Shown here piece after piece: positions 7,364 to 16,400 of a stretch of DNA of 17,518 nt. The position numbers were made by a program, and so were the translations under genes. The notes beneath the pieces were generated by a model. The model worked only from the letters and a program-made list of their open reading frames with translations. It had not been told where the DNA came from and made no database searches. Source of the stretch: Prevotella sp. Lineage in GTDB: Bacteria; Bacteroidota; Bacteroidia; Bacteroidales; Bacteroidaceae. Location of the stretch: the NCBI GenBank assembly GCA_017623335.1, contig JAGAPI010000053.1:1-17518 (forward strand). The letters run 5' to 3'. Position 1 is the first letter of the stretch. Each line of letters begins with the position of its first letter.

Positions 7364-8998
7364 ATGGAAAAAAGTGCTTTACAAATCGCAAGAGCCGCTT
7401 ATCAGCCAAAGCTGCCAAAGGCTCTTCAGGGTGCGGTAAAGGTGAGTGAGGGTGCTCCTACCCAGAGTGTGGATAACCAGGCGGAAATCAAGGAGTTGTT
7501 CCCTAACACTTACGGAATGCCCGTAATCGAGTTTGTAGAAGGTGAGGCTCAGCAGCTTCCACCATTCAATGTGGGTGTAATCCTCAGCGGCGGTCAGGCT
7601 CCTGGCGGCCATAACGTTATTTCAGGTCTTTTCGACGGTATCAAGAGCCTCAATGCCGACAGCAAGCTCTATGGTTTCATTCTGGGCCCCGGCGGTCTGG
7701 TTGACCATAATTATATGGAGCTTACAGCCGACATTATCGACGAGTACCGCAACACCGGCGGTTTCGACATCATCGGCTCAGGCCGTACAAAACTGGAGGA
7801 GGTAGACCAGTTTGAGAAGGGTATCGAGATTCTCCGTGAGCTCAACATCAAGGCTCTTGTAATCATCGGTGGCGACGACTCCAACACCAATGCCTGCGTG
7901 CTGGCTGAGTACTATGCAGCAAAGAAGTACGGTGTACAGGTTATCGGCTGTCCGAAGACCATCGACGGTGACTTGAAAAACGCTCAGATTGAGACTTCAT
8001 TCGGTTTCGACACTGCTTGTAAGACATATTCAGAGCTTATCGGCAACATTCAGCGCGACTGTAACTCTGCACGCAAATACTGGCACTTCATCAAGCTCAT
8101 GGGCCGCTCGGCTTCTCACATTGCCTTGGAGTGCGCACTGCAGTGCCAGCCAAACATCTGCCTCGTGTCTGAGGAGGTTGAGGCAAAGGCAATGTCGCTC
8201 GACGAGGTTGTTACATATATAGCAAAGGCCGTGGCTGCACGTGCTGCTGAGGGCAACAACTTCGGTACTGTGCTTATTCCTGAGGGACTCATCGAGTTCA
8301 TTCCGGCAATCAAGAAACTTATCGCAGAGCTTAACGACGTTCTTGCCACCGACGAGGCTCAGGGCATTGCACGCGACCAGCAGATTGACTTTGTCAAGTC
8401 TCACATCTCGGCTGAGAATCTGGCTGTGTTCAACTCTCTGCCTGCCGATGTGGCATCACAGCTGGCTCTCGACCGCGACCCGCACGGCAACGTTCAGGTG
8501 TCGCTCATCGAAACAGAGAAGCTGCTCTCACGTATGGTTGAGAAGAAACTTGCAGAGATGAAGGCTGCCGGCGAGTATGTCGGAAAGTTTGCAGCCCAGC
8601 ACCATTTCTTCGGCTATGAGGGACGCTGCGCCGCTCCTTCCAACTATGACGCAGACTACTGCTACTCTCTCGGTTTCAACGCATCACGCCTCATTGCCAA
8701 CGGCAAGACTGGCTATATGTCAATCATCAAGAACACCACAGCTCCAGCCAATGAGTGGATTGCAGGCGGTGTGCCTATCACAATGATGATGAACCTTGAG
8801 CGCCGCAACGGTAAGATGAAGCCTGTAATCCGTAAGGCTCTCGTTGAGCTCGACGGTGCCCCGTTCAAGTTCTTTGCAAGCAAGCGTGACGAATGGGCTA
8901 ATCAGACAGCATACGTTTATCCCGGACCAATCCAGTATTTCGGTCCCTCTGAGGTTTGCGACCAGAGCACAAAGACTCTGCAGCTTGAGCAGAATTAA
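7364..8998 (+). CDS. pfp: Diphosphate--fructose-6-phosphate 1-phosphotransferase (PPi-dependent phosphofructokinase)
   Basis: Catalyses the reversible transfer of phosphate from pyrophosphate to fructose 6-phosphate, giving fructose 1,6-bisphosphate and phosphate in cytoplasmic glycolysis and gluconeogenesis. The 544-residue length fits the long, plant-beta-like PFP class. Motifs seen: [11 protein letters not shown] (74-84) for phosphate-donor binding; GGDDS (169-173), where the second aspartate replaces the glycine of ATP-dependent enzymes and marks PPi use; KTIDGDL (198-204) with the catalytic aspartate D201; and MGRSASH (246-252) for fructose-phosphate binding. Codon use is strongly biased, as in highly expressed genes. 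It is preceded by tandem promoter-like boxes. Its TAA stop is the first part of a GA-heptamer palindrome that separates it from the GH25 gene. Confidence 0.97.
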
Positions 8999-9090
8999 AT
9001 GAAGAGTGAAGAATGAAGAGTGAAGAATGGGGCTGCGCACAGCTCATTTCAATTTTCACTCTCCATTCTTCACTCTTCATTCTTCATTTA
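8996..9090. repeat. Heptamer (GAAGAGT/GAAGAAT) tandem array with inverted copy, 24-bp perfect stem
   Basis: Left arm: four tandem 7-bp units at 9001-9028, alternating GAAGAGT and GAAGAAT. Right arm: the complementary units (ATTCTTC/ACTCTTC) at 9065-9085, preceded by two degenerate units back to 9051. Bases 9007-9030 are the exact reverse complement of 9063-9086. The centre holds a small GCTG-CGCA-CAGC hairpin. The ends are TAAATGAAGA and its complement TCTTCATTTA. The pfp stop codon forms the left edge. No T-run follows, so it is not a standard terminator. A sister element lies at 14499-14628. Confidence 0.85.
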
Positions 9091-9111
9091 TCAAAATTCT
9101 TCATTTTCACA

Positions 9112-9954
9112 TTGGCACAAAAACGTAGGAAAAACAAAGTAACATCGTACAGGAAACGCCCCGGCATCATTATCCGCCTGCTGCAACGCCTGCCAGGCTG
9201 GGTGTGGTGGGTTGGCGGTGCCAGCATAGTGTTTGCCTACATTTGGTTTTTCTATTATTTTTTTGTGGGGCCGTTCGGTTTCCGCTGGCGCGCCTTGTAT
9301 GGCGATGTGAATTATCCCGACGGTTATGAAATCCACGGCATAGACATATCACATTATCAGGGCAAGATAGACTGGGACGAGCTGCGCGACAATGGAAAAA
9401 TTAAGAAATCGCCCATCCGCTTCATCATGATTAAGGCTACCGAGGGCAGCACGCGCATCGACCCCATGTTTAAAAGCAATTTCCATGAAGCACGCGAACA
9501 CGGTTTCACACGTGGAGCCTATCATTTTTGGAGCAACCGCTCCACAGGGCGCGCGCAGGCTGAGCATTTCATCAAGAATGTGAAACTTGCCGACGGCGAC
9601 CTGCCTCCAGTACTCGATGTAGAACATAAGTCGAAGACGCAAACCGATGCAGAATTTAAGGAGAGCATTCTCACATGGCTGAGGCTCATTGAGCAGCGCT
9701 ATAAGGTGAAGCCTATCATCTATACTTATTACAAGTTCAAGATGACATATCTCAGTGACTCAGTGTTCAACGAGTATCCATATTGGATAGCACATTATTA
9801 TGTAGACAAGGTGGAATACAAGGGTGAATGGAAATTCTGGCAGCATACTGACTGCGGGAAACTGCCGGGCATCAAAGGCTTTGTCGACTTTAATATCTAC
9901 AACGGTTCGTTCTACGACCTGCGCCGTCTCACCATCGGTTTCGATGATGAATGA
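9112..9954 (+). CDS. Membrane-anchored glycoside hydrolase family 25 muramidase (lysozyme)
   Basis: GH25 enzymes cleave the beta-1,4 bond between N-acetylmuramic acid and N-acetylglucosamine in peptidoglycan. Numbering from the TTG at 9112 (280 residues), the protein has a basic tail (AQKRRKNK), one membrane span at about 29-53 (rich in W, F and Y), and then the catalytic domain. Conserved residues are D68 in GIDISHYQG, D169 and E171 in LDVE, WQH near 243-245 and VDFN near the end. The frame also opens at an ATG at 9013, but the first 33 residues from there are encoded by the GA-heptamer palindrome and look artefactual, so I chose the TTG. The gene would act on the periplasmic side of the inner membrane. 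It follows pfp on the same strand with no promoter box between them, and its 3' end converges with the receptor gene, 42 bases away. Confidence 0.9.
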   Translation: MAQKRRKNKVTSYRKRPGIIIRLLQRLPGWVWWVGGASIVFAYIWFFYYFFVGPFGFRWRALYGDVNYPDGYEIHGIDISHYQGKIDWDELRDNGKIKKSPIRFIMIKATEGSTRIDPMFKSNFHEAREHGFTRGAYHFWSNRSTGRAQAEHFIKNVKLADGDLPPVLDVEHKSKTQTDAEFKESILTWLRLIEQRYKVKPIIYTYYKFKMTYLSDSVFNEYPYWIAHYYVDKVEYKGEWKFWQHTDCGKLPGIKGFVDFNIYNGSFYDLRRLTIGFDDE

Positions 9955-12704: not shown

Positions 12705-14513
12705 ATGAAACATCAACTGAGAAGCAGTGTTTGCACAGAAGGTAGAAGAATGGCTGGAGCCCGCGCCCTGTGGGTTGCCACCGGTATGAAGCGCGAGCAG
12801 TTTGGCAAGCCGATTATTGCCATCGTCAACTCGTTTACACAGTTTGTGCCGGGTCACACCCATCTTCATGAGATTGGTCAGATAGTAAAGAAAGAGATTG
12901 AGGCAATGGGCTGCTATGCGGCAGAGTTCAACACCATCGCCATCGACGACGGTATTGCCATGGGGCACGACGGCATGCTGTATTCGCTGCCGAGCCGCGA
13001 CATCATTGCCGACTCAGTGGAGTATATGGTGAATGCCCACAAGGCCGACGCCATGATTTGCATATCCAACTGCGACAAGGTTACCCCGGGAATGCTCATG
13101 GCAAGTATGCGCCTGAACATCCCTACGGTGTTCTGCTCGGGCGGTCCGATGGAGGCTGGTAAGTGGCGCGGTGAGAACGCCGACCTTATCACTGCTATGA
13201 TTAAGGGTGCCGATCCGTCGGTGAGTGATGCTGATATGGCAGAGATTGAGAGCTGCGCCTGTCCTGGCTGTGGAAGTTGCTCGGGAATGTTCACCGCCAA
13301 CTCTATGAACTCATTGACTGAAGCAATAGGTCTGTCACTGCCCGGCAATGGTACTATCCTTGCAACCCACAAGAACCGTATTGAACTGTTTAAGGCAGCC
13401 GCCCGTCAGGTGGTGAAAAACGCTTTCGCATATTATGAGGACGGCGACGAGAGCGTGCTGCCACGCAACATAGCCACCCGCAAGGCATTCATGAACGCTA
13501 TGGCGCTCGACATAGCCATGGGAGGCAGCACCAACACCGTGCTCCATCTCTTGGCTGTGGCACAGGAGGCAGGCGCCGACTTCAAGATGAAGGACATCGA
13601 CGAGCTGAGCCGCAAAGTGCCTTGTCTGTGTAAGCTGGCTCCAAACACACAGAAGTACAGTGTGCAGGAGTGCAACCGTGCCGGCGGTATTCTCGGCATT
13701 CTCAACGAGCTTAACAAGGGCGGACTCATCGACGGCAGCGCTATTCGTGTTGACGGCAAGACTCTTGCCGAGCAGATGGCAGCCTATGACATTACAAAGG
13801 CAGAGATTGACGATGAGGCAAACCGTATATACCAAAGTGCGCCGGGTGGACGCTTCTCCACACAGATGGGAAGTCAGGACGCACAGTGGGGCACGCTCGA
13901 CACCGACCGCGCCAACGGTTGCATTCGCGACCTTGAGCACGCCTACACCAAGGACGGCGGACTGGCTGTGCTCTTCGGCAACATTGCCCAGGACGGCTGC
14001 GTGGTGAAGACTGCCGGTGTTGACGAGAGCATCTGGCACTTTGAGGGCCCTGCAGTGTGCTTCGATTCTCAGGAAGATGCCTGTGAGGGCATTCTCGGCG
14101 GAAAGGTGAACTCAGGCGACTGCGTGGTTATCACCCACGAGGGACCAAAGGGCGGTCCGGGTATGCAGGAGATGCTTTATCCTACATCTTATATTAAGAG
14201 CCGTCACCTTGGCAAGGAGTGTGCGCTGATTACCGACGGACGTTTCTCTGGCGGTACGTCAGGACTGAGCATCGGTCACATCTCTCCGGAGGCTGCCGCA
14301 GGCGGCAACATCGGCAAGATTAAGGATGGCGACATCATCGTGATTGACATCCCAAGCCGTTCAATCAACGTGAAGCTGAGTGATGAGGAACTTGCCGCGC
14401 GTCCACAGCAACCGCTGAAGCGCGACCGCGTGGTGAGCAAGGCACTGAGAGCATACGCGCAGAGCGTAAGCTCGGCAGATAAGGGTGGAGTGAGAATCTT
14501 AAATGAAGAGTGA
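12705..14513 (+). CDS. ilvD: Dihydroxy-acid dehydratase
   Basis: Converts 2,3-dihydroxy-isovalerate and 2,3-dihydroxy-3-methylvalerate to the 2-oxo acids that become valine, leucine and isoleucine. The 602 residues closely follow the E. coli-type Ilv[14 protein letters not shown] (42-54), the Mg-binding [11 protein letters not shown] block (81-91), the iron-sulfur ligand C123 in SNCDK, the cysteine-rich [17 protein letters not shown] (184-200, C192 the expected cluster ligand), and [10 protein letters not shown] with S515, the serine thought to act as base. The ATG at 12705 gives the family N-terminus. It is first in the ilv operon and has a strong promoter. Its last codons (NEE) and TGA stop are formed by the first heptamer of a GA-rich palindrome, so the native C-terminus may have been changed by the repeat. 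Confidence 0.97.
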
Positions 14514-14628
14514 AGAATGAAGAATGGGCTACGCCTATATAGTTATGGATTAATGAGAGGAAGAACGAAAATTATTCGCAAAGCTCATCAGCTTCGCATT
14601 CTTCATTCTTCACTCTTCATTCTTCATT
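14499..14628. repeat. Heptamer tandem array with inverted copy between ilvD and ilvB, 25-bp perfect stem
   Basis: Left arm: units GAAGAGT, GAAGAAT, GAAGAAT at 14505-14525. Right arm: complementary units ATTCTTC, ATTCTTC, ACTCTTC, ATTCTTC at 14598-14625. Bases 14502-14526 are the exact reverse complement of 14597-14621, with 70 bases between. The loop contains a smaller AAGCT-CATC-AGCTT hairpin (14581-14594). The ilvD stop codon (14511-14513) lies inside the left arm, and the right arm ends about 20 bases before the ilvB ATG. No T-run follows the stem. Confidence 0.87.
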
Positions 14629-14648
14629 AAAAAAATTGGAAAATTTTT

Positions 14649-16364: not shown

Positions 16365-16372
16365 AATAGAGT

Positions 16373-16400
16373 GAAGAACGAAGAGGGAAAAGTGAAGAAT
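16373..16400 (+). repeat. Degenerate GA heptamer array between ilvB and ilvN
   Basis: Four consecutive 7-base units, GAAGAAC, GAAGAGG, GAAAAGT and GAAGAAT, occupy most of the 45-base spacer, starting 8 bases after the ilvB stop. They match the units of the two palindromic elements at 8996-9090 and 14499-14628, but there is no inverted copy here. It may be a decayed or one-armed member. Being purine-rich and close to the ilvN ATG at 16410, it might also affect ribosome binding. Confidence 0.6.

Follow-up and report, generated by a model that had tools for sequence, protein, structure and literature searches.

Heptamer palindromes between Prevotella genes as probable gene-less relatives of S23p-type intervening sequences

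The main outcome of this analysis is that two palindromes built from 7-bp tandem repeats, one behind pfp and one behind ilvD in a Prevotella sp. genome, are probably (at a rough probability of 0.7) gene-less, MITE-like copies of elements that resemble intervening sequences (IVS) with their S23p gene. The window, by which we mean the whole analysed stretch of 17,518 nucleotides, is a Prevotella-like piece of chromosome, the closest relative compared at the GH25 gene (L001) being 83% identical. At the level of sequence, the interpretation draws on the anatomy of the elements, their occurrence as a family, their link to genes for the four-helix-bundle "23S rRNA intervening sequence protein" (IVP, Pfam PF05635) and their turnover at orthologous sites; from these we infer that RNase III would cut the elements, that the IVP protein would bind them and that they could be mobilised in trans. 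Taken as a family, they seem to be small mobile elements of messenger RNAs, a class that has received little notice. The link to IVP genes lay beyond the reach of the original prediction, which had described the palindrome behind pfp.

The palindromes in the window

Much of the original description is confirmed by the positions of the repeats (Table 1). GAAGAGT and GAAGAAT do alternate four times (9001-9028), the array stands directly 3' of the pfp stop codon (TAA, 8996-8998), positions 9007-9030 are fully complementary to 9063-9086 and form the perfect 24-bp stem, and there is no T-run after 9090. Copy 1 reads TGAAGAG, TGAAGAA and the same two units once more, followed by a 27-base core and the inverted array. 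The recurrence announced near 14499 is a second copy, with left units from 14502 and the right array at 14597-14631; it has a perfect stem of 25 bp and occupies the ilvD/ilvB gap, where 135 nt separate the ilvD stop from the ilvB start. What had to be given up are the supposed conserved ends, TAAATGAAGA, as the TAA of copy 1 is the pfp stop codon and the elements of relatives end otherwise. A third array, between ilvB and ilvN, did not figure in the original prediction; no inverted partner was noticed for it, and it may act as a purine-rich leader of ilvN.

Table 1. Coordinates of the heptamer elements and adjoining genes in the window
Feature	Position	Strand	Remarks
pfp (presumed; diphosphate-dependent phosphofructokinase), upstream cistron	7364..8998	+	ORF list; 75-93% protein identity to orthologues
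Left arm, copy 1: tandem heptamers TGAAGAG/TGAAGAA	9000..9029	+	purine-rich on sense strand
Core, copy 1 (27 bases)	9030..9056	+	small inner hairpin 9030-9045
Right arm, copy 1: inverted heptamer array	9057..9090	-	
GH25-type lysozyme-like gene (presumed), downstream cistron, longest ORF	9013..9954	+	ORF list; orthologous junctions
ilvD (presumed)	12705..14513	+	last codons and stop AAT GAA GAG TGA come from the element
Left arm, copy 2	14502..14526	+	
Core, copy 2	14527..14596	+	inner hairpins
Right arm, copy 2	14597..14631	-	
Degenerate single array, gap between ilvB (stop 16364) and ilvN (start 16410)	16368..16400	+	remnant or one-sided copy

The gene names in the table are those we presume to apply, pfp having been used in the original prediction as well. 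The longest ORF of the GH25 gene begins within the left arm of copy 1, at an ATG. As this ATG (9013) is in frame with GH25, an N-terminal tail derived from the element is possible; the likelier start, in our judgement, is the TTG at 9112, 3' of the element. No IVP gene occurs within the window, and both copies are gene-less. Searches of the window with Rfam gave no family at gathering scores, and a tRNA search gave none.

Chance is excluded as the origin of these palindromes, because three successive GAAGART units (with up to 2 mismatches) match 9 times in the window and 0 times in each of 200 dinucleotide shuffles, and because the predicted RNA folds of copy 1 (-49.3 kcal/mol, z -10.1) and copy 2 (-47.9 kcal/mol, z -6.05) stand well apart from expectation. 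Folding energies of this strength would also suit hairpins that serve the host at mRNA 3' ends, as terminators or stabilisers under selection, where the stem alone matters and the unit drifts freely. We consider this improbable. The lack of a T-run argues against it, the one terminator-like match (9030-9045, sense strand) being weak and falling short of an intrinsic terminator.

A family of period-7 arrays

The palindrome behind pfp is a member of a large, fast-changing family of intergenic elements in Prevotella and its relatives. In 80 related loci (1.44 Mb), which were picked via the GH25 gene and hence not for their repeats, a search for tandem arrays with periods of 4-21 returned 58 arrays of period 7, in 33 loci, the next best being period 9 with 11; a second-order Markov control of the 80 loci returned 0 arrays. 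The interspersed family that had been predicted is equally apparent in a genus sample of 299 genomes, 176 of which contain at least one match (with up to 3 mismatches) to the 28-mer GAAGAGT/GAAGAAT array, with a maximum of 264 in one genome. Exact copies of this 28-mer are also present in nine IMG/VR viral contigs (L081-L089), either through phage carriage or as mis-binned host DNA.

Units are diverse across the 80 loci (TTTGAGG, GTTTATA, TCTTAAT, CCATTCT and others); judged from these loci, it is the layout that is kept within the family and not the repeat sequence. Inverted partners within 300 bp (score of at least 14) were detected for 17 of the 58 arrays, as compared to 0 with the flanks of other arrays and 4 direct partners. 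The corresponding values were 18 of 65 arrays in G010 (7 with flanks of other arrays, 6 direct) and 20 of 63 in G007 (7 and 10), where the controls are raised because a single genome reuses its own units. Three pairs of gene-less palindromes, situated at separate places within G007 or G010, are 92-95% identical over 84-109 nt and are thus dispersed, near-identical gene-less copies as known from MITEs. Of the two guesses in the original prediction, they favour the small non-autonomous mobile element; the other, a role of the palindromes at mRNA 3' ends, is possible. Filled and empty sites were compared across species, at a divergence too high for element ends to be placed to the single base, and no target-site duplication is established from them.

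A rival account is that these are plain simple-sequence arrays, which grow by polymerase slippage in place at tolerant spots behind stop codons and become palindromes by fold-back copying, with the IVP genes discussed below being unrelated. An earlier survey (Mrazek 2007, as summarised in the cited part of PMC4679880) ranked heptamers first among long simple repeats in most of its genomes. One-sided arrays are indeed common, 41 of the 58 having no inverted partner at a score of at least 14, and L054 and L077 differ in the length of one array at a shared site. Tandem, near-exact 7-bp units above chance, the hallmark of long simple-sequence heptamers, are certainly present, but the pairing of arrays and the presence of an IVP gene are left unexplained by this account, and the near-identical copies at separate places in G007 and G010 speak against growth in place. 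We therefore rate it as unlikely.

Two further features of the arrays were noted. At 14669-14689 of L033, heptamers on the stop-free strand encode an apparent hydrophobic signal-peptide stretch (LFTIHCSLFTIS), a possible reuse as coding sequence. Single right-hand arrays in L154, L155, L156, L157, L158, L164, L166 and L187 stop a few bases before a TACCTTTGCA-like box, presumably the Bacteroidota-type -7 promoter motif.

IVP genes between inverted arrays

In L078, the gap between pfp and GH25 contains a 122-aa gene flanked by inverted heptamer arrays. Its product is assigned to Pfam PF05635 (23S_rRNA_IVP) and to NCBIfam TIGR02436 (four helix bundle protein). In a first sample of 12 genomes plus L078 and L174, 25 of 28 strong IVP loci (one place counted twice) had an inverted repeat across the gene, 13 of them with strict period-7 arms, as opposed to 8 of 263 control genes with an inverted repeat, 1 being of period 7.

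The set was extended to 144 recognised IVP loci, 139 of them non-redundant, these being best-scoring matches rather than a random draw. Inverted arms with a score of at least 13 are found at 121 of the 139 non-redundant loci but at only 11 of 263 small control genes, which come from a different set of genomes, many of the genomes compared being possibly incomplete; at a score of at least 20 the numbers are 89 and 2. The other 18 IVP loci have no arms at the threshold. This association is hard to reconcile with simple-sequence arrays to which the IVP gene would be unrelated. Among the 126 loci with arms (duplicates included), the best period, where periodicity was clear, was 7 in 79, 8 in 28, 9 in 5 and 10 in 3. 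Measured arm to arm, the elements have a median length of 496 bp; a gene of about 120 aa often lies inside the stem, which speaks against a hairpin that serves the host at the 3' end. The top Pfam-scoring PF05635 loci (L219-L247) mostly have 8-bp units, with arms of about 180 bp in L219. Duplicate IVP genes in G126 are part of a 1070-bp duplication and are uninformative on element ends.

PF05635 genes exceed the family cut-off in 236 of the 299 genomes of the genus sample and in 60 of 80 genomes of a phylum sample. The protein of L208 has solved relatives (2rld, clear; 2gsc, weak), while that of L201 has a weak similarity, below curated cut-offs, to Avd of diversity-generating retroelements. 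The distance between heptamers tracks the distance between proteins (Mantel r 0.41, reached in 0 of 2000 permutations; 79 loci including a few duplicates). On the sequences compared, this agreement could reflect recognition of the repeat by the protein and plain co-inheritance alike. A search of the open-access literature by title and the start of abstracts retrieved no paper that ties PF05635 genes to heptamer palindromes.

The IVP subfamily that fits the heptamers of the window is that of L208. Inverted arms are present at 29 of the 30 loci whose IVP is nearest to that of L208; the remaining one, L313, is at a contig end. In 22 of the 30, both arms contain at least two TGAAGAR units, the type found in the window, and 7 have variants (TGAAAAR or mixed). 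Conserved inner ends, ATTTGCTNCCGC, occur in 12 of these 30 loci. The same sequence stands next to period-7 arrays at 27 of 34 sites in stretches of G010 and at 19 of 20 in stretches of G007, both sets having been chosen around array matches, while the 80 loci contain it at one site, without an array. Such conserved inner ends beside arrays would not be expected from slippage. The window copies have no ATTTGCTNCCGC inner ends. Their own inner end, GGG(G)CTNCGC, was sought behind TGAAGAR arrays in 59 other loci and found at none of the 62; ATTTGCTNCCGC followed 31 of these arrays and another sequence the other 31. A full-length partner with the same ends, as defines a MITE, is thus found in relatives, and the window copies share the arms only.

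Genome copy number of the 28-mer follows the IVP subfamily, another point against simple-sequence arrays. The median is 49 copies in the 18 of 249 genomes with a close L208-type gene and 2 in the other 231; at a looser cut of E<=2e-33, 44 of the 249 genomes have a median of 29, the remainder 1 (Mann-Whitney p 4.7e-13). Pointing the other way, copies of the 28-mer (2, 4, 6, 11 and 18) are also present in 5 of the 20 listed genomes that had no IVP match.

The pta/ackA gap is the site of 10 of the 30 L208-type loci, and one of the two genes is seen at another two; the remaining 18 have neither pta nor ackA by a simple string test, one of them (L213/L310) being seen beside another gene. Because L208-type loci are found in such differing gene contexts, the gene seems to move together with its arms. 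The same gap is a recurrent insertion site that holds differing IVP subfamilies across species (L174, L191, L208, L214, L327, L333, L335).

Placement and turnover

For the 100 loci where a frame on the same strand lies upstream, the median distance between its stop codon and the start of the IVP element is 1 nt. The IVP gene and its two neighbours share one strand at 88 of 121 loci (6 undetermined downstream), as compared to 142 of 268 small control genes with both neighbours co-directional, which were counted by a different ORF caller. For the arrays, gene context was taken from a simple longest-ORF caller. By this measure, 22 of the 58 arrays in the 80 loci are in called ORFs and 2 at edges, and of the other 34, 29 have co-directional genes on either side and 2 are in divergent gaps. 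In G007, 39 of 63 arrays are in ORFs, with 20 of the other 24 being co-directional and 2 divergent; in G010, 37 of 65 are in ORFs and 1 at an edge, with 17 of the other 27 co-directional and 8 divergent. The 8 arrays in G010 indicate that divergent gaps are not always avoided.

Comparison of orthologous sites points to rapid turnover. At the pfp/GH25 junction, 8 of 78 orthologues have a period-7 array, 6 of these with a detected palindrome, and the heptamers differ. The distance from the pfp stop to the conserved part of GH25 is at most 100 nt in 47 of the 78; by eye, other junctions in relatives have ordinary terminator-like hairpins or nothing, and the closest relative has a different hairpin. 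The element is therefore dispensable at this position. In the closest relative, G001, the ilvD/ilvB gap is without an element, ilvD ending in ATA ATA GAT TAG 12 nt before the ilvB start; the search returned five relatives, of which G004 has no element, G012 has other heptamers, and no ilvB start was recognised in L340 and L341. Before an lpxA-like gene, an IVP element is found in G305 and G112, another palindrome in G306 and a mini-palindrome in G010. At the site of L211, where G305 has an IVP element and G112 has none by eye, an apparent old left arm in G306 is read into the protein tail, with a new palindrome from a different family behind it. One palindrome is located in frame within ygiQ of L037. 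The cited part of PMC5524665 lists, among phage elements of Flavobacterium columnare, a gene for a four helix bundle protein between guanylate kinase and nicotinic acid mononucleotide adenylyltransferase, with gaps of about 35 nt, an intercistronic placement like that of the Prevotella IVP elements.

Some of this is what hairpins maintained for the host would also produce. The pfp/GH25 junctions alternate, by eye, between terminator-like hairpins, heptamer palindromes and nothing, and at one site the heptamer palindrome of L056 corresponds to a terminator-like hairpin in L047, a relative with 92% identity. Selection on a stem would equally suit L024 and L056, which are 85% identical: at two sites, orthologous elements have homologous cores and flanks but different units (TTTATAG vs TTTGAAC at one, TTTGAGG vs TTTGAAC at the other), and the right arm is the matching complement in each species, the unit having been swapped in both arms together. 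Dispensability at the pfp junction, with palindromes in only 6 of 78 cases, and the in-frame copy within ygiQ speak against such a service to the host. The matching of arms is general: in 121 IVP elements, the two arms of one element match each other with a mean of 25.5, versus 21.4 when swapped with a close relative and 7.0 and 5.2 with others. A joint change of this kind could come about by selection on the stem, by gene conversion between arms or by replacement with a newer element.

The arms are clearly asymmetric in composition, with a mean purine content of 0.66 on the left and 0.35 on the right. A three-frame stop-codon trap was considered as the driving force of the 7-bp period. Stops in all frames are indeed present in 66 of 121 left arms and 26 of 121 right arms (sign test p 3.3e-6, left over right), but shuffling within units gives an expectation of 56 and 12; as composition accounts for most of the excess, the idea was rejected.

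Proposed mechanism and significance

We favour the interpretation of the window palindromes as gene-less copies of IVS-like elements, and envisage the following scheme. A full element consists of two inverted short-tandem-repeat arrays (7 bp, in some lineages 8) that flank one IVP (PF05635) gene, about 500 bp in all; most are placed between co-directional genes, directly at the upstream stop codon. Once transcribed, the arms would pair as a stem of about 25-40 bp. By analogy with 23S rRNA IVSs, RNase III may then cut the stem and drop the element, so splitting the operon message while leaving both reading frames unharmed, and a stub of hairpin would stay on the 3' end of the upstream gene. A multimeric IVP protein probably has the tandem repeats as its cognate site, and gene-less copies could therefore be spread in trans by the IVP of another copy. 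An intervening sequence of messenger RNA would explain the placement at stop codons, the same-strand neighbours and the matching of arms without a fixed sequence.

A more far-reaching version, to which we attach a tentative and rather doubtful status, is that Bacteroidota possess a genome-wide class of mRNA intervening sequences. In each lineage, an Avd-like four-helix-bundle protein would recognise its own heptamers or octamers and spread copies, both with and without the gene, to intercistronic sites, perhaps by way of excised hairpin RNA and a reverse transcriptase, with RNase III performing the excision. Unit and protein would then change together, and the layout would therefore be inherited while the sequence would not.

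PF05635 four-helix-bundle genes are common. If the proposal is true, a large set of orphan genes and the long-standing question of why these genomes have 7-bp repeats share one explanation, and intercistronic stems overlooked by annotation may be places where many operon messages are cut or folded. The mobility of 23S rRNA IVSs would also become testable in tractable gut Bacteroidota.

Comparison with known systems

REP elements, which have an associated RAYT transposase, and the palindromic elements of Rickettsia are small palindromes with many copies per genome, some of them in frame within genes. Such families retain a conserved sequence, whereas in Prevotella the layout is kept and the unit changes. 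The likeness to REP elements drawn in the original prediction fails on this point, as no conserved palindrome sequence is found among the heptamer elements, their units varying freely between and within genomes.

BrickBuilt of Porphyromonas gingivalis is likewise a minisatellite within a MITE-like element of Bacteroidales, but it has a 23-nt unit with small inverted-repeat ends around one direct array and is always intergenic, and the cited part of the report names no IVP (PMC4596501). The TAACTGA heptamer repeats of Beggiatoaceae, Cyanobacteria and Bacteroidetes, of which the main genome has 169 direct sets and a single indirect repeat, share the 7-bp unit, the mostly intergenic position near start and stop codons and the patchy distribution across species; they differ in being direct repeats of one sequence, and the cited part of that study gives no link to an IVP gene (PMC4679880).

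The closest parallel is the 23S rRNA IVS of Coxiella, described in the cited part of PMC4990558 as a selfish element, 428-444 nt long, that is excised by RNase III; it has an S23p gene, a terminal stem of 28 bp and, upstream of S23p, tandem heptamers (GACAGAT) that vary in number between strains. According to the same text, 23S rRNA IVSs with S23p also occur in Leptospira and Brucella, and their mobility is suspected but unproven (PMC4990558). The S23p four-helix-bundle gene (PF05635), the terminal inverted repeats, the heptamers and the approximate length (428-444 nt in Coxiella, a median of 496 bp in the Prevotella elements) are common to both, as far as the IVS is described there. Stem-forming terminal repeats are present in the window (24 and 25 bp) and at 121 of 139 IVP loci, and the inner S23p/IVP gene is present in relatives, the window copies being gene-less. 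Going by the same description, the Prevotella elements differ in having tandem arrays in both arms and several gene-bearing and gene-less copies per genome. The host also differs, being helix 45 of 23S rRNA for the IVS but protein-coding operons in Prevotella; window copies and the loci of relatives alike lie among protein-coding genes. They are therefore best described as elements that would work like an IVS and are related to it through IVP, rather than as 23S rRNA IVSs.
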